Below are positions 14,970 through 63,685 of a stretch of DNA of 64,000 nt, piece after piece. This DNA is from Henckelia pumila (taxonomy: Eukaryota > Streptophyta > Magnoliopsida > Lamiales > Gesneriaceae): positions 147,388,861 to 147,452,860 of the forward strand of contig NC_133122.1 in assembly GCF_033568475.1 (NCBI RefSeq). The letters are read 5' to 3'. Within the stretch, counting starts at the first letter, position 1; the number at the start of each line of letters is the position of its first letter. Below the pieces are notes generated by a model. The model ran no database searches. It was given only the letters and a program-made list of their open reading frames with translations, and was not told where the DNA came from. Made by a program: the position numbers and the translations under genes.

Positions 14970-16056
14970 GTAGTAACTTGGATAACTCTCTTTCAACTAT
15001 GCATCAAAAGTGGGTCATAGAATAAAAGGCTGCGGAATTTCTGGTTTCTGTATCTTTCACCAAAAGTCAAATAGTCTAGTTGAGTGTAGACAGTATCATT
15101 TGAAATTGGAATATCTTCTGGTAGAGAGTCAGATTCTCTAAAAAGAAGATGAGAAAGCAATTGTTTTTCTTTTAATAGAGGTACCTGAACCTGTTGGTCT
15201 TCTGAATCAAAATCTTCTGATTGGTGAGAAGAAGATACCAACTCTTTACTCATCATTTTAGGTGTTTGAACATGTTGTTCTGATGTCTTTGAGAACTCTG
15301 ATTGTGAAGACTTAGGAGGAGATGATATTTTTGGAGAAGGATCCCTAGGTTCTTCAATGTCAGGAGAGGGATCTCTGGCAAATTCAGTTATTGAGGATTG
15401 AACAATCATGGAATCATCAATTATCTTGGTTGAACTGGATGGAGATATGAAAAGCTCTTTCTCTGTGTTTGTTTCCATGTTGTCAGCATGTTTCTCAGGA
15501 AGTTACAGTTAACACAACAATCGAACAACATCATCAACAGAAGTCATTGAAACTTTTGGAATAGAAACTTCAGCAGTTGAAGTACCAACAGTTGACAATT
15601 CAGGATGGCAGATGGTTTGGTGGGAGTCTCTACAACTTTTTCATTTCCTTTTCCCTTAAGTTCTGGAAGGCCTTAAGTCATATGAGTGACGTTGGGTTCA
15701 ACAATCTTAATTCCTAATAGAGTTGTAGTTGCAAAAATTGGAGAAGGTCGAAGAGGAGCTCCAATGTGCTTGACCAGTTTCAACATCTTAAAGGATGAAT
15801 TCTTGCGTACTAGTTCAGTAGTTAAATCAACAATAGCAGCCTTTGCAAGAACATCAAGAGTTGAGGCAGTCTTGGTAGGAGATTTTTGCTTGGTAAAAAC
15901 ATGAATAAGAGGAGTTTCATCTGCAATTGGCTCATCCTCAGATTCAACAATAACTAATTTCCTTTTGACTGACCCCTTCTGCTTCTTAAGAACTTTGGAT
16001 TTACCAGTTGAAGTTTTTGATAAATCAGATTGATTTTCACCTTCTTCATTCTTAAA
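14970..16056 (-). pseudogene. C-terminal part of the copia-2 additional ORF
   Basis: The longest open piece (15478-14993) is Ser/Pro/Glu rich, with repeats of the type RDPSPDIEEP and RDPSPKISSP, and has no recognised domain. More in-phase fragments lie up to 16056, where copia-1 inserted; the frame's N-terminal part continues at 24870. I place it in the additional ORF because it follows RT on the same strand and precedes the purine tract. Its function is unknown. Confidence 0.5.
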
Positions 16057-17358
16057 TGTTAGAACCTAATTGGGGGGGGGGGGGGGGGAAATTTAGGTTC
16101 TATTGGCAACTTTAGCAATTTAAAGCGATTATGCAAATACGCAAGCGGAATACTTAAAGAAATTAATAATAAGTGCAGTAAATAAATGCGTAATGTAAAT
16201 AATGCAGTAAAAGGGATAAGAGATGTTTATGGAAGTTCGACGATAAATCATCTACGTCTCCCCTTCTTGGTTAAGATCGATTAACCAAGGATCCACTAGC
16301 ACTTCGAACGACTTGGCTTTGATGGCTCCAAGGATAGCCTTACAACTTTACACGATCACCGCGCCGATACAACTCAACACTTGGCCTTAAGGGCTCCAAG
16401 GATAGCCACAATACTCGTAAATACACTTGGCTTCACACACAAGTGTTTACAATAACTGAGCAACCAACTCACGAATGAACTTATACAAACAACCCTCGAT
16501 TTTGAATATATATCTCACAAATATTTTTTTTAACTCTTGTAGGAGATGAACTTGCTTGCAAAGAGAATTGAGAGTGAATTGGTGAGTTGAGAAGGCTTGA
16601 AATGGCATGTATTTATAGGTGCCAATCCGAATGGGTTCGGGTCGTTCGAACGGGCCTTCGGGTCGTCCGAACCCTCTCTGATTGAAGTTCAAATTCTTAC
16701 GGCTGGTGAACTGTTCGGGTGGTCCGAAGTCATCTTCGGGTCGTTCGAACGGCGGCATTAAATTCATTCCGGCAAATTTTCTTCCGACAAAATCTTCATG
16801 GTTGTAAAGGAGTTCGGGTCGTCCGAACCTGTCTTTGGGTCGTCCGAAGTACTCATTTCGTGGCCTCCGAAAGTGCCTTCGATCTTTATTTAATTTCTGG
16901 AAAATCTTCGGGTCGTCCGAACTCACTTCGGATCGTCCGAAGTAGTCTTTTCGTGGCCTCCGAGAGTGCCTCCGATCTTTATTTAATTCCTGGAAAATCT
17001 TCGGGTCGTCCGAACTCACTTTGGATCATCTGAAGTAGTCTTCGAAGTCTTCGAACTTGTCCTCCAATCTTTATTTAATTCTGAAATACTTCGGAGCATC
17101 CGAAGTTGTCTTCGGGTCGTCCGAACCTGGACAGATTTGAACTTTTGAATTTTTATTCCCAATTTTTTTGTTATCGGTTCTTGCTTCCAATATTATCTAT
17201 TCTCAAAAATATTATTACCTGCAAATTTCTCACTTTAAACTGTTAGTAACAATTAACTGAGTTTTGTAATCATCAAAACAATTTAATTATGAGAATTGTT
17301 AATGCATTAAAAACATTAATCTCATTACACGAGATTTGTATGCGTTTAAGGCGTAACA
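16057..17358 (-). repeat. 3' LTR of copia-1
   Basis: On the element strand it reads TGTTACGCCTTAAACGC to GGTTCTAACA (1302 bp). It holds the TTCGG-N5-CCGAA array (16636-17126), a TATA box (TATAAATAC, + text 16609-16618), and at its 3' end an inverted repeat AGAACCTAA/TTAGGTTCT enclosing a 17-base C run on the element strand. Confidence 0.95.
16636..17126 (-). promoter_or_regulatory. U3 palindrome array TTCGG-N5-CCGAA (3' LTR)
   Basis: Full matches of TTCGG-N5-CCGAA start at 16657, 16714, 16813, 16907, 16927, 17000, 17090 and 17112. One-mismatch copies start at 16636, 16735 and 16834, and a weaker one near 17020. The spacer is always five bases, often GTCGT. Part of the array sits in an ~88-bp tandem repeat (about 16850-17040) with 'GGCCTCCGA' and 'GATCTTTATTTAATT'. 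The array lies upstream of the TATA box on the element strand, so it is in U3. Confidence 0.88.
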
Positions 17359-17641
17359 ATCTCCCCCTTTTTGATGATCACAAAACTTGGTTAAATAGGA
17401 GAAATAAAATAAGGCAATAATATATTTAAACAAATTTACTCAAATATTGTTTAAGCTTTTAAAACTCCCCCTCAATTTAATAAATAATTATTCAACCAAA
17501 TTAATTCTCCCCCTTTTTGCGATAATCAAAAAGCAATTAAAAGACAAGAAAATTAAATTACACAATAATTTCATTAAACTAATTTAGAAATTTTTACATT
17601 AAAAGCATAAACAAGTACAACTTAAAATGCAAAAATAAAAT

Positions 17642-18874
17642 CTAAGAGTCATCATCGTGCTGCGGCGGAGGATAGCAAGAGAAAAAGTCATCGAAGCGAG
17701 TCTCCAGCGAGGCAACTCTCATAGTCAATGCATCCATAGAGGCAGTAGAAGATGCAAAGTGGCTGGCTAGATTCCCTTCAATGCGCTGAAGAGTCTCGAA
17801 AAGACGATCAGTCTGAGGAGCGGGGGTCGCAGGAACTTCGGGTAACTCAAATGGAAGCTCGCCAAGATTTGTAAAAGTATGAAAACCAAAAGAAGAAGGT
17901 CCTCCTTCTTCGGCAGGCGGCCCATTGGGAAAACCCTTAGCTTGAGAAGTGGGTGAAAGACTCGAATAAGGAAGTGAAAAATGTTTATTTGGAAGATATT
18001 TTTTAAAGGCACGAGTTGGGTCATTAACCCAACAAGAAAGGACAGGATTCCAAGATAGTTCCATCTTGGTAATCGAAGAATGGTTGAAAGTGTGGAAATC
18101 AAAGATGGGAAGAGCATTTGGGTTATCAAAAGATATGTCAAAATGAGTCAAAATGCGGTTGATGACACGAGCAAAAGGTAAAGAAACTTTCCTCGTGGCT
18201 TTAGCCGCATTATGCATAGCCTACATAATGAATCGAGAAAGGTTGAAAGGACGGGAAGAGACAATATGGTAGAGAACATAAAGATCAAGATATTTGCAGG
18301 TGGATGAGTCTCCACTGCACGGAATGATGGAAGTAGTGATCAATTTCTGAATGATTTGGTAGTCGGGACGGAGTTGTTTCAAATAAAGACGATCGTCTGC
18401 AACAGTGGCTGGACGACCAAAAATGGTAGAAAGAACCTCATCTCGATCAAAAGTAGGATCATCAGTGGGCCATCCCTGACCGAAATAGTTGCTGGGTCCC
18501 AGCAAAGGAAGGTCAAACCACTCGGCAAAGTTGGAGACAGAAAAGCGAACATGCCGACCCTGGACAATCGTGGCGATATGAAGCTCCTCGCCAAGTTCGA
18601 GTTCCAGGTTGGCGTAGAACTCGTAAAGTAGCTCTGGAAAGATGGCATCCGGAATGGAAGGCTGGAAAAAGGATTCCCAATGTTGGGCAGCAATGAGAGG
18701 CAATAAAAGCAGATGTGATGTCGCAAGATAGGTGACATAAAAAATACGATCGGGTAAAATCGGTCGAGTGGGATAATCCTCAGGGATAGGACGAGAAATA
18801 GCCGATAAATTTGGATCATGGATAGGGATTGGGCGGCTAGAGCTGGCTTGATCACGACGACGTTTGGTAGGCAT
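17642..18874 (-). pseudogene. additional ORF of copia-1 (putative plant transposon protein domain), one in-frame stop
   Basis: The frame starts at ATG 18874 (MPTKRRRDQASSSR) and would code about 410 residues but for a single TAG at 18221-18223. The N-terminal half contains HWESFFQPSIPDAIFPELLY, then EFYANLELE and VQGRHVRFSVSNFAEWFDLP. This resembles the 'putative plant transposon protein' domain found in ORFs of SIRE-type copia elements and many annotated plant TE proteins. The second half has a Pro-rich patch and a C-terminal amphipathic stretch (RIEGNLASHFASSTASMDAL, then MRVASLETRFDDFF). It lies downstream of RNase H in the sense direction. Its role is unknown. A TATA box lies about 60 bp upstream. 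Confidence 0.75.
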
Positions 18875-18928
18875 TTTTTAGGCTAAAGAAAATTTTTAGG
18901 GGTGAAGAAATCGGATGGCCCGAGGGGG

Positions 18929-18937
18929 TATATATAG
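18929..18937 (-). promoter_or_regulatory. TATA box upstream of the additional ORF
   Basis: The + text GTATATATAGC (minus GCTATATATAC) lies about 55-60 bases upstream of ATG 18874 and directly downstream of the palindrome array 18945-19267. Position and spacing fit a core promoter for a separate transcript of the additional ORF. This is inference from layout. Confidence 0.6.
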
Positions 18938-18944
18938 CAAATGG

Positions 18945-19267
18945 TTCGGACAATCCGAACTGAGTTCGGACGGTCCAAACCTGATTACCGAGGGATAAGA
19001 TTGACAGTCTATAATTCAAGTTCAGAGGACCCGAAGTACATTCAGATGGTCCGAACAGTTCATTTTTAAGTTCGGGTGGTCCGAAGTGTTTCAAAGGGCC
19101 CGAAGCTGAGGCGGTCAAAATTCAATGTTTTACCGCCCATAGTTCAGACGATCCGAAGCTTGTTCGGAGGGCCCGAACTGGCTAATTAGGAGGGAATATT
19201 GAAAGTCTTGAATTGAATGGGCGCGAGGCCGTTCGGACGATCCGAACTATGGTTCGGGTGGTCCGAA
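18945..19267 (-). promoter_or_regulatory. internal palindrome array TTCGG-N5-CCGAA
   Basis: Perfect copies start at 18945, 19071, 19163, 19232 and 19253. Copies with one mismatch start at 18965, 19021, 19041 and 19143, and a weaker one near 19090. The spacer is always five bases. The array lies in the gap between the end of RNase H (19475) and the additional ORF (18874), just upstream of its TATA box. Confidence 0.88.
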
Positions 19268-19474
19268 CTAGCCGAAGTTTCAAAAAATCAAAAAAAATGA
19301 CCCTTAAATTAAAATTTGCAATTTTAAGTATTAAATCAAATAATTCACATAAAATGTGAGCTTTTTAATTTTGAATAAATATAATTGATTTATATTATCC
19401 AAAATTAATTTGCTCGATTTTAATATTAAGCTCCCCCTTAATATGACATTAAATTTATTTATGTTCGTAAGTAT

Positions 19475-21499
19475 TTACAACTCAATCATGCCAAGTTCAC
19501 CACGCAAACGAATAAAATTATTTTCATCTAGTGGTTTTGTAAAAATATCGGCAATTTGATTTGATGTGTCAACATATTGAAGTTCAACTTCATTTCGTTC
19601 GATGTGGTCACGAATAAAATGATGACGAATGTCAATATGTTTGGTGCGCGAATGTTGAATCGAATTCTTTGTAAGACAAATGGCGCTAGTGTTGTCACAG
19701 AAAATAGGGATTTTTGAAAAAGAGACGCCATAGTCGAGCAATTGATGCTTCATCCAAAGAATTTGCGCACAACAACTACCAGCAGCCATATATTCGGCTT
19801 CGGTTGTTGATAACGCAACACAATTTTGCTTTTTCGAAAACCAAGAAACTAAACAGTTTCCTAAAAAAAAACAAGTTCCACTAGTGCTTTTTCTGTCCAC
19901 CTTATATCCACCAAAGTCGGCATCACAATATACTTTTAAATCAAAGAAAAAATTTTTCGAATACCACAAGCCGAGATTTGGAGTATTTGAAAGATATTTG
20001 AAAATGTGTTTTAAGGCGAACAAATGTGATTCCTTTGGACATGATTGAAATCGTGCACACAAGAAAACACTAAACATAATGTCAGGTCTACTAGCAGTAG
20101 CATAAAGTAAGGAGCCAATCATACTACGAAAGGAAGATTGATCTACAGATTTACCATTTTCATCCTTGTCGAGTCTGATTGTTGTGCTCATCGGTGTGGA
20201 TGATGATTTTGTGTTCTCCATCCCAAACTTCTTTAGAATCTCCTTGATGTATTTGCTTTGGTTCACAAAGAACCCATCCTTGCACTGCTTGATTTGCAAT
20301 CCGAGAAAATAATTAAGTTCCCCCATCATGCTCATCTCGAAGTGATCCTGCATAAGCTTGGAGAAATCTTGACAAAGAGTTTTGTTAGTAGAACCAAAAA
20401 TTATATCATCAACATAAATTTGAACAATCAAAAGATCATTTTTGACATTCTTGGTGAATAAAGTAATGTCGATCTTTCCTCTTGAAAAACCATTTGAAAG
20501 CAAGAAAGTGGAAAATTTATCATACCAAGCTCTAGGAGCTTGTTTCAATCCATACAAAGCTTTGTTTAATCTATACACATGATCAGGCAGTAAAGCATCA
20601 ACAAAGCCATCAGGTTGTTCAATATGAACTTCTTCTTTCAATTTACCATTCAGAAAAGCACTCTTAACATCCATTTGAAATAACTTAAAATTTCTAGAGC
20701 AAGCAAAAGCAAGTAGCATGCGAATGGATTCTAGTCTAGCAACAGGCGCATATGTCTCATCATAATCAATGCCTTCTTCTTGACTATATCCTTTAGCTAC
20801 TAGCCTAGCTTTATTTCTAGTGATAGTGTCATGCTCATCAAGTTTATTCCTAAACACCCATTTAGTTCCAATAATAGATCTATCATGCGGCCTAGGAACA
20901 AGATTCCAAACATCATTACGTTTAAACTCATTCAATTCATCTTGCATAGCAATAATCCAAGAATCATCTAATAAAGCATCATTAATGCACTTAGGTTCAA
21001 CATGTGAAACAAAAGCAAGATGATTGCAAATATTATTAAGAGAAGAACGAGTGGTTACTCCCTTCGAAGGACTTCCAATGATAAGATCTATAGGATGATC
21101 TTTGTGAAGCGTCCAATCCTTCGGAAGTGGTGTTTCCTCAACAGAAACATCTAAATCATTTAGACTTGATGAAGCCATCTCTTCTTCGAGCAATTCTACA
21201 TCATCGTTAGTATTACAAGAAACTATAGTTTCATCAAAGATAACATGCATGGATTCTTCAATAAGTAAAGTGCGTTTATTAAATACTCGAAAAGCCTTAC
21301 TTGTGGTAGAATATCCGAGAAAAATACCTTTATCGGATTTGGCATCAAATTTGCCAAGGTTGTCTTTACCGTTATTATGAATATAGCATTTGGAACCGAA
21401 AGCTCGAAAGTATGAAATGTTAGGCTTTCTCCCTCTCCATAATTCATATGGAGTTTTCTTGAGAATTGACCTTATTGATACAGGATTAATGATGTACAA
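19475..21499 (-). pseudogene. copia-1 integrase C-terminal part, reverse transcriptase and RNase H
   Basis: This 674-codon frame is the second part of the gag-pol polyprotein. In order it has the integrase tail ([20 protein letters not shown], then [16 protein letters not shown]), RT with [23 protein letters not shown] and the catalytic YVDDI, and RNase H with [19 protein letters not shown] and the terminal [13 protein letters not shown]. It ends with a TAA-type stop at 19475. It is out of frame with the upstream part because one base (a T of the Cys-Tyr codons) is missing near 21500. The RT itself appears intact. The protein would reverse transcribe element RNA in virus-like particles. Confidence 0.93.
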
Positions 21500-23520
21500 G
21501 CAGTGTTCATTGCTTCAGCCCAAAAATATTTTGGTAAAGAATGCTCACATATCATGGTCCTCGCAATCTCCACAAGTGTCCTATTTTTCCTCTCAACGAC
21601 CCTGTTTTGTTGAGGAGTCCTAGGACAAGAAAAATTATGACCGATGCCTTTCTCTTCACAAAAGTTTGAAAAACTCTCATTTTGAAATTAAGTTCCGTGG
21701 TCACTACGGATCTGTTTTATAGATATATTTTTCTCATTCTCAACTCGTTTGACAAAAGTTTTAAAATAATCAAAGGCATCATTTTTGTATGCTAAAAACA
21801 ATGTCCACGTGTAACGTGAGAAATCATCCACAATGATAAATGCATAAAGCTTCCCTCCTAGGCTAGCGTTCCTCGAGGGACCACATAGATCTAGGTGAAA
21901 ATGTTCAAGGGGCATAGAATTAGATATAAAATTTTTGCTTTTAAAAGATTCTCTTGTATGTTTGCCAAGTTGACACGCATCACAAACAGAATCTAATTTT
22001 AAATTGAGTTTTGGCATACCAACAACTAAATCAAGTTTAAAAAGTTTTTCTATGGTACTAGGACCAACATGACCTAGTCGTCTATGCCAAAGAATGTTGT
22101 CATCAACATTCAAGGATACAAGGCTTTTAATATTTGATAAAGATAAATTGTTTAAAGAAATCTTGTATACATTTTCACTTCTATATCCTTTGAAATTTAT
22201 GGATTTGTTAGTCATGAGTGATATAGTGCAGTGTTGGGGAGTGAATTTGACTTCATAACCTCTATCGCACAATTGACTTATGCTTAGTAGATTATGTTTA
22301 AGCCCTTTCACTAGGAGTACATCATCAATCAAGCAAGATTTAGATATACCTATTGAGCCGATTCCTTCAATTACTCCTTTGCTGTTGTCTCCAAAGGTGA
22401 CAGTTCCCTTCTCCTTTGGTTTGATGGATTGGAGTAGATCTTTGTTTCCCGTCATATGTCTAGAACATCCACTGTCTAGATACCATATGCTAGGGAGAAC
22501 AGTTTTTCTATTTCCCTCATCATCGTCGTCGGAGACGATGTCATCACTTTTAGCCATGAGGCAAATGTTAGCTTCCTCCTCGTCATCGTCGCTATCGCTC
22601 CAAGTGGCTAGAAGTGCTTTCTTCTTTCCTTTGTCAGATTTCTTCTTGAGAGGGCACTCATTTGCATAATGCCCTTGTTGTTGACAGTTGTAGCAAGTAA
22701 CTTCCTTGTCCGTCTTCTTTTTGAAGTTGTTTCCTCGCATAAATCTTTTGAATTTTCTTGCGAAGAGTGCCATATCATCATCATCTTCTTCTTCGACTTG
22801 GGTAGATAAGACAATCCCCTTTGCCTTGTTCTTTTCATCCTCTCTCTTTGACTCTTTCCTTGTAGATACTTCTAACTCATGGGTTTTTAGGGTCCCATGG
22901 AGTTGATCAAGATCATAGGAAGCGGTGTCGCCTTTGTTGGATTCTATGATAGCCGTCCTCTTGGCATCCCACTCCTTGGGTAATGCGCGTAGAGCTCTCC
23001 TCCACACTTGTTTGGTTGGATATTGTTCCCCGAGTTGGGCTAGCTCATTGATAATTTGAGTAAGCCTTCGGAACATAGTATCTACATCTTCACTTGATTC
23101 CATCTCGAATGTTTCATATTTGAGTTGGAGTAGATCGATCTTCGTTTCTTTGACTTGATTAGTCCCTTCATGGCATATCTCCAACTTGTCCCATATCTCT
23201 TTAGCGGATGAGCACATTGAGATCCGATTGTACTCGTTCATATCTAAGGAACAATGAAGAATATTCATGGCTTTAGCATTTTGAGATATAAGTTTCATAT
23301 CCTCCTTAGAAAAGTCGTCCATTCCCTTAGGAATTTTGACACCCTCAACCTATTTAGTAGGTATGTAGGGACCTTTCACAGTAACCTTCCAAAGGTCATA
23401 ATCTACGGATTGGATATATAGGGACATTCGGTTTTTCCAATATCCGTAGTTTATGCCATTGAAAAGAGGAGGACGATTTGTTGATTGCCCTTGAGCATAG
23501 TCGCTCGCTAGATTTGCCAT
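21500..23520 (-). pseudogene. copia-1 gag, protease and integrase core
   Basis: The frame starts at ATG 23520 (MANLASDYAQGQSTNRPPLF), 34 bases after the primer site. An in-frame TAG lies at 23350-23352, so the longest open piece starts at 23322. It contains the gag domain (EIWDKLEICHEG region), a zinc knuckle CYNCQQQGHYANEC, the aspartic protease motif WYLDSGCSRHMTG, the integrase HHCC finger (WHRRLGH ... CDACQLGKH), and the integrase core starting DLCGPS and VDDFSRYTW. A TAA at 21688-21690 replaces the Glu codon after RSDHGT; the final catalytic Glu region (VVERKNRTLVE) follows in the same frame at about 21600-21550. Two stops make this copy defective. Confidence 0.93.
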
Positions 23521-23553: not shown

Positions 23554-23565
23554 GCTCTGATACCA
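23554..23565 (-). other. primer binding site of copia-1, tRNA-Met type
   Basis: On the minus strand TGGTATCAGAGC lies just inside the 5' LTR, which ends at 23568. This sequence is the usual copia primer site complementary to the 3' end of initiator tRNA-Met. Confidence 0.95.
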
Positions 23566-23567
23566 CT

Positions 23568-24864
23568 TGTTAGAACCTAATTTGGGGGGGGGGGGGATTT
23601 AGGTTCTATTGACAACTTTAGCAATTTAAAGCGATTATGCAAATACGCAAGCGGAAGACTTAAAGCAATTAATAATAAGTGCAGTAAATAAATGCGTACT
23701 GTAAATAAAGCAGTAAAAGGGATAAGAGATGTTTATGGAAGTTCGACGATAAATCGTCTACGTCTCCCCTTCTCGGTTAAGATCGATTAACCAAGGATCC
23801 ACTAGCACTTCGAACGACTTGGCTTTGATGGCTTCAAGGATAGCCTTACAACTTGACACGATCACCGCGCCGATACAACTCAACACTTGGCCTTAAGGGC
23901 TCCAAGGATAGCCACAACACTCGTAAATACACTTGGCTTTACACACAAGTGTTTACAATAACCGAGCAACCAACTCACGAATGAACTTATACAAACAACC
24001 CTCGATTTTGAATATATATCTCACAAATATTTTTTTTAACTCTTGTAGGAGATGAACTTGCTTGCAAAGAGAATTGAGAGTGAATTGGTGAGTTGAGAAG
24101 ACTTCAAATGGCATGTATTTATAGATGCCAATCCGAATGGGTTCGGGTCATCCGAACGGGCCTTTGGGTCGTCCGAACCCTGTCTGATTGAAATTCAAAT
24201 TCTTACGGCTGGTGAACTGTTCGGGTGGTCCGAAGTCATCTTCGGGTCGTCCGAACGGCGGCATTAAATTCATTCCGGCAAATTTTCTTCCGACAAAATC
24301 TTCATGGCCGTAAAGGAGTTCGGGTCGTCCGAACCTGTCTTTGGGTCGTCCGAAGTAGTCATTTCGTGGCCTCCGAGAGTGCCTTCGATCTTTATTTAAT
24401 TTCTGGAAAATCTTCGGGTCGTCCGAACTCACTTCGGATCGTCCGAAGTAGTCTTTTCGTGGCCTCCGAGAGTGCCTCCGATCTTTATTTAATTCCTGGA
24501 AAATCTTCGGGTCGTCCGAACTCACTTCGGATCATCCGAAGTAGTCTTCAAAGTCTCCGAACTTGTCCTCCGATCTTTATTTAATTCTGAAATACTTCGG
24601 AGCATCCGAAGTTGTCTTCGGGTCGTCCGAACCTGGACAGATTTGAACTTTTGAATATTTATTCCCAATTTTTTTGTTATCGGTTCTTGCTTCCAATATT
24701 GTCTATTCTCAAAAATATTATTACCTGCAAATTTTTCACTTTAAACTGTTAGTAACAATTAACAGAGTTTTGTAATCATCAAAACAATTTAATTATGAGA
24801 ATTGTTAATGCATTAAAAACATTAATCTCATTACACGAGATTTGTATGCGTTTAAGGCGTAACA
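23568..24864 (-). repeat. 5' LTR of copia-1
   Basis: This 1297-bp LTR matches 16057-17358 with scattered differences. The C run at the 3' end is 13 bases here against 17 in the partner. The palindrome array lies at about 24139-24634 and the TATA box (+ text TATTTATAG) at about 24117-24124, downstream of the array on the element strand. Confidence 0.95.
24139..24634 (-). promoter_or_regulatory. U3 palindrome array TTCGG-N5-CCGAA (5' LTR)
   Basis: The array repeats that of the 3' LTR with about a dozen copies and constant five-base spacers. Two half-site differences from the partner restore palindromes. For example, the copy near 24243 reads TTCGGGTCGTCCGAA here, while its partner at 16735 has TCGAA at the right arm. 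It lies upstream of the element's TATA box and is the only array that can drive full-length transcription. Confidence 0.85.
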
Positions 24865-24869
24865 TTAAA

Positions 24870-25530: not shown

Positions 25531-27437
25531 CATTGTAATATCAACTGGTGTCCCCCTTTCATCTTTGTCTAGTTTAATTGATGCACTCATTGGTGTACTA
25601 ATAGATGAGAATTTTTTCATTAAAAATGTTTGATACGCTCTTTAGAGTATTTGGACTGGTTAATGAATATTCCTTTGTCTAGTTGCTTTACTTACAGTCA
25701 TAAGAAGAATGTTAATTCTCTCATCATTCTCATTTCAAACTTATCATGCATGAGGTTGGATAACTTTTGACATAGTTTGGGGTTAGTTGATCCAAAAATG
25801 ATATCATTAACATATATTTGAACTAGTAGAATATAATCTCCTTTAGCATATTTGAAAAGAGTCTTATCTACAGTACCAATAACAAAATCGTGATCAAGAA
25901 GAAATTTAAGAAGAGTATCATACCAAGCTCTAGGAGCTTGCTTTAGTCCGTATAAATCTTTATCTAATTGATAAACAAATGAGGATGAGTTGGATTGACA
26001 AAACCTAGTGGTTGTTCGACATAAAATTCTTCTTGAAGAAGATCATTTAGAAATGCTAACTTGACATCCATTTGATAAAAGAAATCCTTGAATGAAGCAT
26101 AAGCAAGGAATATTCTTATAGCTTCCAGTCGTGCGACTGGTGCAAATGATTCATCAAAGTCAATTCCTTCCTCTTGTTTATAACCTTGAGCAACAAGTCA
26201 AACCTTGTTTCTCACCACTGTTCCATTCTCATCCAGTTTGTTTCTGAATACCCATCTAGTACCTATGACATTTTGATTTTCAGGTCGAGGTACTAAATTT
26301 CATACTTTACTTCTTTCGAACTGGTTGAGTTCTTCTTGCATTGCATCAATCCAACTTCCATCAGCTAATGCTTCATCAACCTTCTTAAGTTCATTATGAG
26401 AGATAAAAGTTGCATGCAAAAATTCATCTATATTTAGTCTTCTTGTTCTAATGGGAGTAGTTGGATCACCTTTGATTAAATCAGGTAGATGATCGTTTCA
26501 TAGAAGATTTGGTTCAATAGGGTTAGTTAGAACTGGTTCTTCTTGTTGAACTGCTTTTTCTTCAATAATAATAATTGGTTCATTATTTTGTTGTGGTAAA
26601 TTCTCAACTGTTCTATTTCAAATTCAGCAGTTGGAATATAAGCATTGTTGTACAACTATTCTGAGCAGTTGACTTTGTCATCCTCCTCTATCATAGTATT
26701 CTCAAGTCTATGACTTAAATCATTCAAATTTATATCATTGGATGTAGTACAAACAGATGATTAATCAAATACAACATAAATAGTTTCTTCAACAGTTAGA
26801 GATTTCTTGTTAAAACTCTATAAGCTCTACTAACTGCTGAATAACCGATAAATATCCCCTCGTCTGATTTAGTATCAAAAGTAGTCAGGTGAGTTTTTTC
26901 CATTATTATGAATGTAACAAGTACAACCAAACACCTTAAAATATGAAACATCAGGTTTCTTATCATTCCAGATCTCATAAGGAGTTTTATTGTGTTTCTT
27001 GTTAATCATTGACCTATTTTGAGTATAACAAGGAGTATTAACTGCTTCAGCCAAATTTTTTTGAGATATATTAGAGTCTGCAATCATGGTTCGAGCTGCT
27101 TCTTTAAGAGTTCAATTTCTTCTTTCTGCTATACCATTTTGTTGTGGAGTTTGAGCTGCTGAAAATTCATGTCTAATTCCATGATTATCTAGATAGGAAG
27201 TTAGATTTTTATTTGTAACTTCTGTACCCCTATCACTTCGAATTATATTGATCATATAAGCTTTTTCATTTTGCGGTCGTTTAAAAGTTTGATCAATTGA
27301 ATACATGTTTGATAATTTGATGGTAGAAAAATCAACCAAATGAATTTTGAATAATCATCTACTACTACTACAAGAATGTACCTCATTTCCCCTAAACTCT
27401 TTATAGGAATAGGACCAAAAAGATCCATATGCAACAA
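25530..27437 (-). pseudogene. copia-2 integrase core and reverse transcriptase, decayed
   Basis: Pieces read LLHMDLFGPIPIKSLGEMRY (integrase core start, near 27437), FSAAQTPQQNGIAERRN (integrase Glu region, 27112), KTPYEIWNDKKPDVSYFKVF (27000) and, in RT, the Ala-rich '[12 protein letters not shown]' segment around 25915-25940 and a VDDI-like region around 25800. The last recognisable motif is STPMSASIKLDKDE at about 25570-25615, where RNase H should begin. Frames are broken many times. It is part of the old element that hosts the other insertions. Confidence 0.85.
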
Positions 27438-29489: not shown

Positions 29490-32483
29490 TCAACCGAATA
29501 ACTCAGGAAAACGTTGTCTTATGTCGGATTCTGTCTCCCAAGTTGCTTCTTCGACGCCGTGATGGCTCCACTGCACTTTCACCAACGGAATTAACTTGGT
29601 TCTGAGTTGCTTCTCCTTCCGATCAAGGATCTGAATCGGTCGCTCAAAATAGCTCAGAGTCTCGTCTAACTCGGCTTCGTCAGACTAAAGAATATGAGAA
29701 GAATCTGGATGATACTTCCGCAGCATAGAGACGTGAAAAACATCGTGAATACCAGATAAAGACGGAGGAAGTGCAAGTCTGTAGGCAAGATCGCCTATCT
29801 TCTCGAGAATCTCGTACGGACCGATGAATCTCGGAGATAACTTCCCTCTCTTACCAAATCTGACAGTACCTCTGAAAGGAGCAATCTTAAGGAATACACG
29901 GTCTCCCTGCTCAAAACTCAGAGGTCTACGTCTGACATTCGCATATTTTGCCTGTCTATCCTGAGCTGACTTCATTCTCAACTAAATGATCTTAACTTGC
30001 TCTGCCATATCTCTAAGAATATCCGGTCCCAAATCCGGTGACTCGGACAAATCATCCCAAAACAACGGAGATCAGCATTTCTTACCGTACAAAGCCTCAA
30101 AAGGTGCCATACCAATAATTTCTTGGAAGCTGTTGTTGTATAAAAACTCGACAAGAGGCAAAGAATCTTGCCAGCTAGTGCCTAAGTCCAGCACTACCGC
30201 TTGCAGCATATCCTCTAACGTCTGAATAGTTCACTCTGACTATCCGTCGGTCTGAGGATGATAAGCTGTACTCAGATGAAATCGAGTACCAAGTGCCTCC
30301 TGCAGACTATGCCAAAAGTGCGAATTGAATCTAGGGTCTCGATCTGAAACGATCGACTTCGGCACCCCATGCAATTTCACAACATTGCTAACATACAACT
30401 TAGCCATCTGATCGTGACGATACGTCATCCTGTATGGAATAAAACAAGCAGACTTCGTCAATCAGTCGATCACTACCCAAATAGCATCACACCCTCGAAC
30501 GAACCGTGGTAGCTTCGTGACGAAATCCAAAGAAATGTGATCTCATTTCCATTCAGGAACAGATAGACTGTGCAACAGACCACCCGGTCGCTTCCTTTCT
30601 GCTTTCACTTGCTGACAGTTCAAACATCAAGATACAAACCTCGCAACATCGCTCTTCATTCTCTTCCACCAAAACTGGTTCTTCAGATCGTTGTGCATCT
30701 TATGGCCTCCAGGGTGAACACTGAACCGACTGCAATGAGCCTCTCGGAGAATACGCTGTCTCAACTTCGAAATATCAGGCACAAAAATACAGTTATTCAC
30801 AAACAAAACGTCATCTCCAACCTGGAATTCAGACTGATGCCCAGATCTGACTTTCTCTACTGAAACCTGAATGCTTGAATCAGACTTCTGTGCTTCTTTG
30901 ATCACAATAAACAACTCCGGCTCGGCTTGAATAGAAAAAACTTTGATAGTCTTCCTATCTGTTTCAAACTCTAAACCAGAAGTGCAACAATCATCGATCA
31001 ACTCAGAAACACCAATAGTAGAAAAAGATAAAGAACAAAGCTTTCGGCTCAAGGTATCTGCAACTGCATCCGACTTTTCCGGATAATACTTGATTTCACA
31101 GTCGAAATCCTTCAACATATCTAACCATCTTTTTTATCTCATATTCAGATCTGCCTGAGAAAACAAGTACTTAAGACTCTTATGATCAGAAAAGATCTCG
31201 AAAGACTCACCATAAAGATAGTGACGCCAGATCTTCAGAGCAAAAACAATCGCAGCTAGTTCAAGATCATGAACTGGATAACGAGTCTCATGCGGTTTCA
31301 GCTGCCTCGATGCATATGCTATTACATGCTAATGCTGCATAAGAACACATCCCAAGCCTCGGTTAGAAGCATCACAATAGACTGTGAAACCTCCAGTACC
31401 TTTCGGAATAGAAAGAATCGGAGCACTGGTCAGCCTCCTCTTCAGATCAACAAAGCTAGCCTCACAATCTACAGTCCAGACAAAAGGCGCGTTCTTCTGA
31501 GTCAGCTGGGTAATCGGCTTGTCAATAGAAGAAAAACCCTCGATGAATCGGTGATAATAACCAGCTAAACCCATAAAGCTTCTGATCTCAGGTACTGATA
31601 TTGGTCTAGGTCAATTCATAACCGCTTCAATCTTGCTGGGATCGACAGAAATCCCATCTCCAGAAATAATGTGACCGAGAAAGACAACTCGATCCAAACA
31701 GAATTCACACTTAGACAACTTGGCAAACAACTGCTCAACTCGCAAAATCTGCAAGACGATCCTCAAGTGCTCTGCATGGTCAGTACGGTTCTTCGAGTAG
31801 ATAAGAATATCATCGATGAAGATAATGACAAACTCATATAAATAACGCTGAAAGATACGGTTCATTAAACCCATAAAAACCGCTGGAGAATTAGTCAAAC
31901 CAAACGGCATGACTATAAACTCAAAATGACCATACCTCGTTCTGAATGCGGTCTTAGGAACATCTTCCTCTCGCACTCTCAGCTGATGATAACCTGACCT
32001 CAGATCAATCTTAGAATAGACAGAAAAACCCTGCAGCTGATCAAAAAGGTCATCTATTTGGGGTAAAGGATACCTGTTCTTGACTGTAGCCTGATTCAAT
32101 TGACGGTAATCAATACAGAGTCGCATAGAACCATCCTTCTTTCGAACAAACAGAACAGGAGCACCCCTAGGCGATACACTAGGTCTGATGTATCCCTTGG
32201 CAATCAAATCCTCAAGCTGCTCCTTCAACTCTTTCAATTCAATCGGTGCCATATGATAAAAAGATTTGGAAATAGGTTGAGTACCTGACAACAAATCGAT
32301 GTTGAATTCGATCTCTCGAATAGGTGGCAATCCAGGAACATCTTCCGGAAACACATCAGCAAATTCTCTAACCACTGGTATATCAACCAATTCAGGGCTA
32401 GATTTAAGTACATCCACTGCATAAACCAAAAATCCCTCTGCACCTCTCTGTAACAAACGAGTCATAAATAACACTAAAATCAA
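29490..32483 (-). pseudogene. gypsy RT, RNase H, integrase and chromodomain, broken
   Basis: RT (32483-31611) carries [30 protein letters not shown] and the catalytic [10 protein letters not shown]. RNase H follows (VYCDASNRGLGCVLM near 31350). Integrase has the HHCC finger region (FSVHPGGHKMHNDLK), the IVSDRDPRFNSHFW catalytic Asp segment and the AYHPQTDG motif. The end has [11 protein letters not shown]-like SH3 sequence, a VKVQW...EEATWE chromodomain and ELFG before the stop at 29490. Stops near 31330, 31130, 30620, 30465, 30235 and 29985 are TAG/TAA in place of Gln or TGA in place of Trp. RT itself has one long open frame of 290 codons. Confidence 0.9.
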
Positions 32484-32982
32484 AGGAATTCTAGATCGAG
32501 AACCCTTACCAAAGAATTTCTACTCGTCTGCCATTTCAAATTTTTATAATTAACTACACATCAAAATGAGAGAAACATATTAACTGTGCAATCGAAATCC
32601 AAAATATTCCAGCTAAAAATACACAACAAGTGTTTGTACTCATCCTATCAAACTTAGTAGTATCAAACCATAAATACATGTCATCTAGAAATTCTGTTCA
32701 AAAACTCACTCCTTGCATCAAAAGAACCAAATCCTCATGAATATTTCCCTTGAGTTACGTACCTACAAGAGAACACATCAAAAAGATCGAATAAATCTTA
32801 TCGGTAATAAATTCTATGTTTACAATAATTAATCATACAAGAAGATCTGCATGACCAACAATCTCCCAGTTCCCCAGTGCAAACAAATGATATTTGATGT
32901 GCAACCAGTGAACTCTAAATACATTAACATACACACCAGCATAATATAGATTTCAGCAGTGAAGGGATAATGCAATTGCTTA

Positions 32983-53736: not shown

Positions 53737-55235
53737 TCATTGATTTTCCTGCAAGTTCTTTGAAATTGAGCATTTTTTATGAACAATCGAAGGCCCGGAC
53801 TCATCATACTCTGCCTTGGTTATCCACATCTGAAATCAGGAAAACAAGAAGAATCAAGCATTTGAAACATTTCAAATTAATCAGTATGCACTATAAAATT
53901 GTTAAATTTACCTGCTGAAATGTGCTGAGAGAGGCCAGAATGGAACCTCCAATCCATGCACCATACTTCCTCTCAGGTGGAGCCACAACCTTAACATTCA
54001 TGCTGCTGGGAGCTAGTGCCGTAATCTCCTTGCTCATCCTCTCCGCGATACCTGGGAACATGGTGGAACCACCACTGAGGACAATGTTACCATACAGATC
54101 CTTCCTGATGTCAGCGTCGCACTTCATGATAGAACCATAGGTGATTTCATGAATTCCAGCACCAGCAGCTTCCATCTCAGTCATTAATGGCTGAAAAAGA
54201 ATCTCAGGGCCGCGGAATCTTTCATCACCAATAGTAATCACCTGTCCGCCAGGCAGCTCATAGTTCTTCTTCACAGAAGAACTGGTCTCGGCCCTTTCTA
54301 GTTCTTGTTCATAATCGAGAGCAATATATGTTAGCTTCTCTTTTATGTCCTTCATAGTCTCATAATCCATAACAACGTTGAAATGGTAGCCTCTTTGACA
54401 ATGTATCTTTGCGAGGTAGTGAGTGAAATCACGTCCAGCGAGATTAAGACACAAAATTGCATGGGGGAGTGCATAACCTTCGTAGATAGGGACTGTGTAG
54501 CTGAAACTATCCCCAGACTCGAGAACAATACCTGTGAATAAAGTGAAGACGTTTCGGTATATATATGTAAATAATAGAATAGGTCCTATTAATTTGTCCC
54601 TTAAAAAATGGATGAACGTTTTTCCTACCGGTGGTACAACCACTGGTATAAAGGGAGAGAACACCCTGAATGGCGGCATACATAGCAGGGGTGTTGAAGG
54701 TCTCAAACATGATTTGAGTCATTTTTTCACGATTGTTCTCCGGATTAAAAGGAGCTTCTGTCAAGAGAATTGGGTGCTCCTCAGGAGCCACATGAAGTTC
54801 ATCATAGAATGTATGGTGCCATATCTTTTCCATATCATCCCAATTGTTGACAATTCCATTCTCAATTGGATACTTATGACTTAAGATACCTCTCCGTGCT
54901 TGAGCCTCATAACCTACATACACATCTTTGCGGTACATGTGAGTGATCATCACTCCAGTGTGACGAGGGTGTCCCACTATGCTAGGGAAAACTGCTCTTG
55001 GAGCATCATCACTAGCAAATCCAGCCTGAAAGTCAGGAGCGCCAAGTAAACGATAAGTTTGTAAAATGGTTATAGATCTGCCTACCACCGTTTTTTAGCT
55101 TCAGAATGGAACCACATACCAATTTATGCAAATTTTAGCATTGCCACCAACAGATAATAGGTTTAAGGTATTGGATGCTAAACGTACCTTGACCATTCCA
55201 GATCCATTGTCACAAATAAGAGGCCTCCCTGCCAT
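53737..55235 (-). CDS. divergent actin, copy 1, 4 exons
   Basis: Exons are 55235-55188, 55025-54629, 54531-53912 and 53829-53737, at the intron positions usual for plant actins; they join to 385 residues. The N-terminus is short ([16 protein letters not shown]), and the first phosphate loop is intact. Compared with standard actin (muscle numbering) the changes are: His73 to Asn (YPIENG), the DNase loop rewritten ([18 protein letters not shown]), Asp154 to Glu, Gly158 to Ser and His161 to Tyr (LESGDSFSY). Gln137 and Asp157 remain. The last exon runs past the usual C-terminal KCF to [13 protein letters not shown]. Exons are open and splice sites good, so it may be expressed, but polymerisation and ATP turnover are probably altered. 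Confidence 0.92.
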
Positions 55236-61784: not shown

Positions 61785-63685
61785 TTAATCATGTTTGTCC
61801 TGTGAGTTTTTTGGAAAACATTTTTTATGAACAATCGAAGGCCCATACTCGTTATACTCTGCCTTGGTTATCCACATCTGCAATCATCAAAACAAGAAAA
61901 ATCAAGCATTTCAAAGCACCAAGCATAAATAAAAACAAAAGAATCGATACAAGTTAATTAATTAAACAGGAGTGCAAGAATGGCCCCTATAGAAACGCGA
62001 CATGTACACAGTTTTTTAGTTTTAAAGATTTAAGTTGCATTGTTACCATTCGCTAATAAGTAGCTATAGTTTTTGTTCCAAGACCATGTATTTGATACCC
62101 ATGAATTGCAAGAAGTGCAATTATTGCAAAAGGAATTGCTGTGGTGCAACGAATGTAAGTGCTAGAAAAACGATCGAACCGTGATACTTAAGGTTATTGT
62201 TCGACTTAAAAATCTAAGTTGCAGCTACGTCGCTAGTTAGAGTTTTCGGTCGCACAGCCTCCCATACATTTGTTCCTGTTACCAATCTTTTTGTCCTTGG
62301 AAACAAAGTAATCACAGAAAGCGAAAAATAAACCGTAGAAACCTTTCCTATATAAGTGTTAAATTTACCTGCTGGAATGTGCTGAGAGAGGCCAGAATGG
62401 AACCTCCAATCCATACACTATACTTCCTCTCAGGTGGAGCCACAACATTAACATTCATGCTGCTCGGAGCAAGTGCCGTAATCTCCTTGCTCATCCTTTC
62501 CGCGATACCTGGGAACATGGTCGAGCCACCACTGAGGACAATGTTACCATACAAATCTTTCCTAATATCTTCATCACACTTCATGATAGAACTATAGGTG
62601 CTTTCATGAATTCTAGCATCTTTCATCCCAATCATTGACGGCTGAAAAAGAATCTCAGGGCTGCGGAATCTTTCAGAACCAACAGTAATCATTCGTCCAT
62701 CAGGCGTTTCATAGTTCGTCTCCACAAAAGAACTGGTCTTTGACATTTCTAGCTCTTGTTCATAATCGAGAGCAATATATGCTAACTTCTCTTTCACGTG
62801 GGCCATAATATCAGTTTGCATAGTAAAGGAGGTAGGAGGGTTGAATATCCTCATGAGGTTTACAGTGATATCACGCCCACCGAGATCAAGACACGAGATC
62901 GCATCGTGGAGAGGATAACCATCACAGATGGGGACTATGTGGCTGAGACTATGCCCAGAGTCAAGAACAATACCTGTGAACAAAGGGAAGGCGTTTCAAT
63001 ATTGTATATGTAAATAATAGAATAGATACCATTTATCCTTTAAAAATGGATTAACATTTTTCCCACCAGTCTTACGACCACTGGCATAAAGGGAGAGAAC
63101 ACCCGGAATGGCGACACACATAGCAGGGGTGTTGAAGGTCTCAAACATGATTTGAGTCATTTTTTCACGATTATTCTTGGGATTAAAAGGAGCTTCTGTC
63201 AAGAGAATTGGGTGCTCCTCAGGAGCCACATGAAGTTCATCATAGAATGTATGGTGCCATATCTTTTCCATGGCATCCCAATTGTTGACAATTCCATGCT
63301 CCAATGGATACTTCAGTGATATGATACCTCTCAATGATGCAGCCTCATCACCTACATATGCATCTTGTCGGCGGAAATTGGCAAACTTCTCTGCAATGTT
63401 AAGAGGATGTCCCACTATGCTAGGGAAAATTGCCCTTGGAGAATCATCCCCAGCAAATCCGGCCTGAAAGTTGGGAACACAAATTAAACAACAACTTTCT
63501 ATGATGGTTATAGATCTGTCTCCCACCTTTTTTAACTTCATATTGGTACTGCACGTACCAATTTATGCAAATTTCAGCATTGCCGCCATCAAACAATAAG
63601 TTTAAGGCGTCAATGCTAAACATACCTTGATCATTCCAGTTCCATTGTCACAAACAATAGCCCCCGTATCCTCAAAATCTGCCAT
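61785..63685 (-). CDS. divergent actin, copy 2, 4 exons
   Basis: Exons are 63685-63626, 63463-63067, 62973-62369 and 61877-61785, joining in frame to 384 residues. The N-terminus [20 protein letters not shown] is close to plant actin. Against muscle numbering Gln137 is Pro ([10 protein letters not shown]) and Asp157 is His with Gly158 Ser (LDSGHSLSH); His73 and His161 remain. The DNase loop ([20 protein letters not shown]) is unlike standard actin. The C-terminus extends past KCF as [13 protein letters not shown], parallel to copy 1. Gln137 and Asp157 are needed for ATP hydrolysis and phosphate/Mg contacts in characterised actins, so normal turnover is unlikely. All splice sites are intact. 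The last intron (61878-62368) is 491 bases against 82 in copy 1. Confidence 0.92.

Follow-up and report, generated by a model that had tools for sequence, protein, structure and literature searches.

A Sirevirus-type Ty1/copia retrotransposon in the genome of Henckelia pumila carries an array of ten 15-bp palindromes and a likely TATA box directly upstream of its additional open reading frame (aORF). We consider it probable (about 0.6) that this module acts as an internal promoter for RNA polymerase II and gives the aORF a transcript of its own. The element lies in a 64,000-nucleotide stretch of DNA, referred to here as the window, for which a first-pass annotation had been made from the sequence alone. 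The evidence consists of the exact spacer and pairing of the palindromes, a TATA box that is kept at a steady distance from the aORF start, purifying selection on the aORF, and one switch of motif version that is common to the LTR and internal arrays.

The element and its additional ORF

The element is read from the minus strand of the window and has the following parts.

23568..24864, minus strand: 5' LTR (TG...CA), 96.9% identical to the 3' LTR
16057..17358, minus strand: 3' LTR
24865-24869 and 16052-16056: 5-bp target-site duplication TTTAA at both element ends
23554..23565, minus strand: primer binding site (PBS) region TGGTATCAGAGC; the Sirevirus PBS is TATCAGAGC
21688..23349, minus strand: gag, zinc knuckle, Pol_BBD, pre-integrase and the start of integrase (below cut-off), from Pfam
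19475..21514, minus strand: pol piece with an SH3-like domain and RVT_2 (Pfam)
17642..18874, minus strand: aORF, with PF20167 (Transposase_32) in its N-terminal half
17361..17369, minus strand: terminal polypurine tract (PPT), joined to AT/TG at the 3' LTR (junction AGATTG)

The Pfam domain order is copia-type (Retrotran_gag_2, zf-CCHC, Pol_BBD, gag_pre-integrs, rve below its cut-off, then RVT_2), and the RNase H end of the pol piece is assigned by its position and by our reading of the sequence. The PBS region, a few bases past the 5' LTR, is the sole PBS match within the window. Identical copies of the PPT (AAGGGGGAG) are found on the minus strand at 17361-17369, 17507-17515 and 19431-19439, and a poly-C signal can be read near the end of both LTRs. 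A PBS of this kind, repeated PPTs and poly-C are the Sirevirus marks that we take from the account of Bousios et al. 2010 (PMC2829016). The window element fits a Sirevirus-type Ty1/copia, a class that rests on these structural marks.

The only Pfam domain found in the aORF is PF20167, described as a 'putative plant transposon protein' (E 1.6e-15). The N-terminus of the predicted protein, MPTKRRR, resembles on reading a nuclear localisation signal, which would not suit an envelope protein. A single-sequence structure model of the N-terminal piece reached a pLDDT of 38 and is too poor to show a fold.

The window copy itself is probably dead and may be silent. Its gag-pol frame is interrupted between the piece at 21688..23349 and the next piece, there is an in-frame TAG at 18221-18223 in its aORF, five of its ten internal palindromes are changed, and it has lost 22 bp of leader. 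Elsewhere in the window, an ORF with an RVT_1 reverse transcriptase (31614-32519, E 6e-36) belongs to another retroelement, and a stretch at 25916-26260 resembles the pol segment 20518-20866 at about 70% DNA identity and is perhaps a second copia remnant adjoining the window element. Actin coding pieces are found on the minus strand at 53894-54718 and 62351-63562, possibly from duplicated or broken actin genes.

The internal array and its TATA box

Between the pol piece and the aORF the following features were located.

18945..19267, minus strand (the sense strand of the element): internal array of ten TTCGG-N5-CCGAA palindromes
18929..18936, minus strand: likely internal TATA box TATATATA
18910..18924, minus strand: degenerate palindrome (two mismatches) between the TATA box and the start
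18874-18872, minus strand: ATG of the aORF

The first-pass annotation had described ten palindromes, five of them perfect, followed by a TATA box and then an ATG, and this arrangement was confirmed. Scored as TTCGG-N5-CCGAA matches at up to two mismatches, the array contains five perfect palindromes (at 18945, 19071, 19163, 19232 and 19253), four with one mismatch (18965, 19021, 19041 and 19143) and one with two (19090). Two more matches with two mismatches lie at the array edges, the degenerate palindrome at 18910 and one at 19262 that overlaps the array. The whole window holds 54 matches at this threshold, as compared with 15.0 expected and a maximum of 28 in 100 shuffles.

The annotation had also placed the ATG 55-60 bases beyond the TATA box. 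That is about right for this copy, in which 62 bp separate the start of the TATA box from the ATG, and it is not typical of the family: the distance is 82-85 bp in 37 of the 39 copies that could be aligned, 62 bp in the window copy and 49 bp in one other. The window copy departs from the rest because it lacks 22 bp of leader.

Conservation of the array, the TATA box and the aORF

Within the family of the window element (family A), searches located the array at 40 or more places (201 candidates, 40 of them scored) and the N-terminal piece of the aORF at 150 or more (1,113 candidates, 150 of them scored). The best 30 loci of each search were merged into 42 places, of which 39 were aligned over the region and three (L028, L031 and L047) were dropped. 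The commonest row of the alignment has ten perfect palindromes that form five pairs, with starts 21, 21, 19, 20 and 20 bp apart. Every aligned copy but one (38 of 39) contains the TATA octamer, the exception being L044.

To keep out most of the decay due to methylation, changes were counted at A/T columns. Across the 39 copies the palindrome arms changed at 9 of 1544 cells, the spacers at 24 of 846 and the linkers at 103 of 3700. The TATA octamer has 0 changes in 304 cells, and the 8-bp gap before it, counted over all of its bases, has 26 in 304. Since the copies are related, the cell counts are not independent and the comparisons were made by column-level Mann-Whitney tests, in which the arms vary less than the linkers (p=0.008) and the spacers (p=0.012), and the TATA box less than the linkers (p=0.02) and the leader (p=0.04). 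Upstream of the array, the non-coding stretch also changes slowly (67 of 6196); the arms are not clearly slower than it (p=0.10), and the corresponding value for the TATA box is p=0.06. This comparison slightly lowers the probability that we give to the internal promoter. The arms match the pace of the end of pol (18 of 3314). These rates describe the interior of the array as a fast-changing stretch whose arms stay near coding pace. CpG sites in the arms are subject to decay: 77 changes were counted in 1544 cells, and 74 of these are C>T or G>A.

Three diverged families were each represented by one locus, namely B (L069), C (L072) and D (L080), in which the aORF piece is 70% identical, 73% identical and, over 170 residues, 62% identical, respectively. 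The array is present at all three loci, with the TATA box at -84, -84 and -83, respectively, and the palindrome between the TATA box and the start is also found in families C and D. The start codon is lost in C, which reads ATT, and in D, which reads CTG, and these two loci are therefore regarded as decayed copies. Between families the aORF has a dN/dS of 0.12-0.19 with a dS of 1.06-1.98, which is close to saturation (first 217 codons; 5 of 23 family-A copies used), and the aORF is thus under purifying selection at this level. For the 23 close copies, the pooled pN/pS is 0.71.

A further 20 diverged copies were chosen to span 69-82% identity from 150 scored aORF hits. All 20 keep the array, with 7 to 10 cores at no more than one mismatch, and the case that the first-pass annotation had set against its own reading, a member that keeps the ORF and lacks the array, was not found among these copies of the lineage. 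The exact TATA octamer is found in 17 of the 20, at -83 or -84 in 15 and at -54 and -78 in the others; of the three remaining copies, two have no octamer, and in the third it differs by one base and lies at -83. Four of the 20 have no ATG at the start. A search of viral contigs, in a set that may omit records of this genome, found no relatives there.

High-scoring ORFs with PF20167 also occur outside these families (150 of 5,990 first-look genome candidates were scored). The palindrome motif is absent from the neighbourhood of a different PF20167 ORF at all three such loci that were fetched (L070, L071 and L073), and the domain as such was rejected as the carrier of the array.

The LTR arrays

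Both LTRs of the window element contain a palindrome array in U3.

24142..24631, minus strand: U3 array of the 5' LTR, with 10 exact palindromes, all of the T..A type
24116..24123, minus strand: likely TATA box TATAAATA of the 5' LTR
16636..17125, minus strand: U3 array of the 3' LTR, with 8 exact palindromes
16610..16617, minus strand: likely TATA box TATAAATA of the 3' LTR

The order of array and then TATA box that had been described for U3 is present in both LTRs. Part of each U3 array (16813-17125 and 24319-24631) is made up of a 93-bp tandem repeat in 3.4 copies, so the LTR arrays grow partly by duplication. The further proposal that the internal array is a copy of this regulatory module was rejected: among the matches listed, the 5' LTR and the internal stretch share 18 bp at E <= 1e-3, and beyond these 18 bp the arrays cannot be aligned. 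The motif and its grammar are common to the LTR and internal arrays; alignable sequence is not. The proposed internal promoter-like module thus stands as far as the array and TATA box are kept with the aORF, at a steady distance and with slower arms, and falls as far as its derivation from the LTR is concerned.

The arms occur in two versions, T..A (TTCGG-N5-CCGAA) and A..T (ATCGG-N5-CCGAT). In family A all 10 exact palindromes of the 5' LTR are of the T..A version, as are all 10 internal ones in the commonest row of the alignment. Family B has the A..T version both in the LTR (5 of 8, the others being mixed) and internally (5 of 7), and four further family-B copies have it internally in 5 or 6 of 7 or 8 palindromes. 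The LTRs of A and B are 94.7% identical over 418 bp of their 3' part and 84% identical over about 90 bp at their start; their U3 arrays do not align. On the sequence, the difference between A and B is one concordant switch of motif version in the LTR and internal arrays, and it counts as a single event. The same outer bases were replaced in both arrays, neither of which is a copy of the other, and this is what a shared reader would impose. Family C has T..A in the LTR (4 of 5) and is mixed internally.

The motif across the genome

Exact sites were counted in the 884.66-Mb genome. There are 38,159 sites of TTCGG-N5-CCGAA and 73,985 of ATCGG-N5-CCGAT, while the reversed controls give 223 and 367, respectively. 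The reversed control contains no CpG, and a change of spacer length is the better control: a spacer of 4 gives 1,665 sites (control 362) and a spacer of 6 gives 674 (control 301), so that N5 exceeds N4 and N6 about 23- and 57-fold. The looser pattern TCGG-N0-20-CCGA has 323,991 sites as compared with 163,712 reversed, a difference of only about twofold that is not evidence, given that the reversed pattern has no CpG. Among the first 100 places listed for this pattern, at the start of contig C1, the spacer is 5 in 71, and 64 of these 71 have A..T spacer ends.

The palindromes are also paired across the genome. Two T..A palindromes with no more than 30 bp between them occur 9,200 times, and the control gives 0. 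In the first 72 plus-strand pairs of the genome-wide listing, the distance is 19-22 bp in 52 cases. In the copia LTR, copia internal and gypsy arrays alike, the spacing of neighbours peaks at 19-21 bp, with 4-6 free bases between them. Constant spacing combined with free sequence is the usual sign of neighbouring dimers touching on one face of the DNA, and from the spacing such a contact may be expected here as well.

The same motif in Ty3/gypsy LTRs

Eleven loci were sampled from the motif listings, chosen for the spacing of their motif clusters from the start of one contig, and ten of them proved to be Ty3/gypsy elements. Three elements (L003, L001 and L004) account for eight motif loci that had been cut automatically; L003 is Ty3/gypsy by Pfam, with a chromodomain match below its cut-off, and L001 and L004 are assigned by tblastn to L003 (93% and 76%). 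Seven interiors were fetched from between motif clusters about 5.3-6.2 kb apart. Six of these are gypsy by Pfam (L074, L075, L077, L078 by gag alone, L079 and L081) and one by tblastn (L076), and none of the seven contains the exact motif away from the LTR side. An eighth interior, between clusters 2 kb apart, is the copia aORF of L080. In the gypsy pieces fetched, which are parts of elements, no aORF match was found.

Versions of the motif differ among gypsy elements too. L004 (C1:295246-298260) and L075 (C1:193900-196380) are 94% identical over 225 integrase residues, and in the LTR stretches examined L004 has T..A (5 of 5) while L075 has A..T (2 of 2). This difference may be a second sign that whole arrays switch together.

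Proposed mechanism and alternatives

In the mechanism that we propose, each 15-bp palindrome (WTCGG-N5-CCGAW) would be read by a dimeric DNA-binding factor, and two dimers would lie side by side about two helical turns apart, with starts at 19-21 bp and a linker of 4-6 free bases. Five dimer pairs would thus be placed just upstream of the TATA box. Binding is predicted to activate transcription that starts at the internal TATA box and provides the aORF with its own short-leader transcript, and the same factor would read the LTR array. The putative factor is taken to be the host's own because the motif also fills the LTRs of Ty3/gypsy elements, with no aORF match in the pieces fetched. A search of the open-licence literature found no plant factor known for this palindromic site; LBD/LOB proteins may be considered as candidates.

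The main rival to an internal promoter is that the LTR transcript serves for expression of the aORF, through splicing or suppression of a stop, and that the internal array has some other role. Both routes have precedents, splicing in barley Bagy2 and stop suppression in SIRE1, as related in PMC7264820 and PMC2829016, and A-like leaders have a pyrimidine tract and a TAG just before the ATG that make a plausible 3' splice site. However, the 60 bases that precede the ATG contain no AG in the five family-B leaders read (L069, L097, L098, L099 and L101), and all five have the TATA box at -84. Simple stop suppression fits poorly because about 600 bp lie between the pol stop and the aORF start. We regard expression from the LTR transcript as unlikely.

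Less likely again is that the palindromes act as RNA, as hairpins or as silencing targets, with foldback RNA that feeds small RNAs. RNA of the array folds strongly (-121 kcal/mol, z -6.6, with none of 100 shuffles as low), and palindrome regions in the LTRs of maize Sireviruses are described as small-RNA hotspots (PMC5311732). But any palindrome folds, and the finer expectations of a hairpin lack support: the spacers of pair partners are not complementary (2.32 of 5 positions vs 2.42 expected, 47 pairs), and in the arms C>T changes, which keep a G-U pair, are about as frequent as G>A changes (51 of 1158 vs 41 of 1158, no clear bias). A hairpin also leaves the TATA box and its steady distance unexplained. 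The RNA hairpin was rejected as the main function; a silencing role may exist beside the promoter, since a host response and a promoter can both hold.

We consider it improbable that the aORF product is itself the palindrome-binding protein and controls both its own gene and the LTR, as a feedback or anti-silencing factor. The nuclear-signal-like N-terminus would suit such a protein, and in the copia copies examined the array is accompanied by the aORF, a rule that is also reported in PMC2829016. Against this, the same report describes the motif in Sireviruses without ENV, and the motif is abundant in Ty3/gypsy LTRs, in pieces with no aORF match, although the protein could still act there in trans.

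Least probable of all is that the arrays are functionless tandem duplications, due to neutral descent or repeat expansion. In favour of this, the LTR array has its 93-bp duplication, copies share ancestry and the arms are not clearly slower than the stretch upstream. Against it, linkers differ among the internal pairs while the spacing stays constant, changes are rarer in the arms than in the linkers or spacers, and the grammar, with its marked excess of N5 over N4 and N6, is common to two superfamilies.

Relation to known systems

Internal promoters of retroelements are familiar from foamy viruses, which have an LTR promoter and an internal promoter for accessory genes. The foamy virus internal promoter works alike, in animal viruses to which the Henckelia element has no relationship. 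The maize element Grande belongs to Ty3/gypsy. Its gene23 is likewise an additional gene between pol and the 3' LTR with its own promoter; it differs in being antisense, and the account in PMC7264820 mentions no shared palindrome module.

The closest system is the repeated motif (RM) of Sireviruses. The study of Bousios et al. (PMC2829016) determined that 13 Sireviruses contain palindromes, 12 of them with a CGG-CCG core. Nine Sireviruses with ENV have additional palindromes in the linker, 77 of 79 of which lie upstream of ENV, and four without ENV are reported there to have no linker palindromes. The RM is thus like the arrays described here, as CGG-CCG palindromes are arrayed in the LTR before the TATA box and a second time before the extra gene, and the HOPIE consensus given in that paper, CGGACCGTCCG, is the core of a palindrome type found in H. 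pumila. The authors spoke in favour of an internal promoter, but none could be identified. The 2010 paper already contains both the arrays in front of ENV and the case for an internal promoter, and the arrangement in the window is not novel as stated; within the open-licence literature searched, this paper, as far as its text was available, is the only report of palindromes upstream of the extra gene, which is not proof that others are absent.

Three features seem to extend the 2010 picture, namely the steady placement of the TATA box, the rule of pairing and the occurrence of the motif in Ty3/gypsy LTRs, and the switch of version in both arrays likewise goes beyond the RM. The RM was called Sirevirus-specific in PMC2829016 and was absent from the classic Ty1/copia elements compared there. 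In the H. pumila genome the same motif with the same spacing is found in Ty3/gypsy LTRs, outside that restriction. No report of the motif in Ty3/gypsy elements was found in the open-licence literature searched, which is not proof of absence. A maize study published in Genome Research in 2016, as cited in PMC5311732, likewise described a palindrome-rich, variable region of Sirevirus LTRs; as presented there, it concerns LTRs and small RNAs and not an internal promoter.

Implications

How Sireviruses express their extra gene is treated as an open question in PMC2829016 and PMC3414828. With the TATA box at a steady distance from the ATG, a search for the start site of the aORF can be aimed at a precise position.

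A broader reading is tentative and, in our judgement, somewhat doubtful. One host factor, or a few that alternate between T..A and A..T outer bases, would read the more than 110,000 exact sites, which are often paired; Ty1/copia Sireviruses and Ty3/gypsy elements, two unrelated superfamilies, would have converged on this factor or traded U3 modules; Sireviruses would have added an internal promoter; and whole arrays would switch together in a manner that resembles an arms race. A single factor, if true, would explain why a motif once regarded as restricted to a single genus occurs more widely. If one factor runs the LTR, the internal promoter and the gypsy LTRs, the activity of very many elements would be tied to one host regulator.
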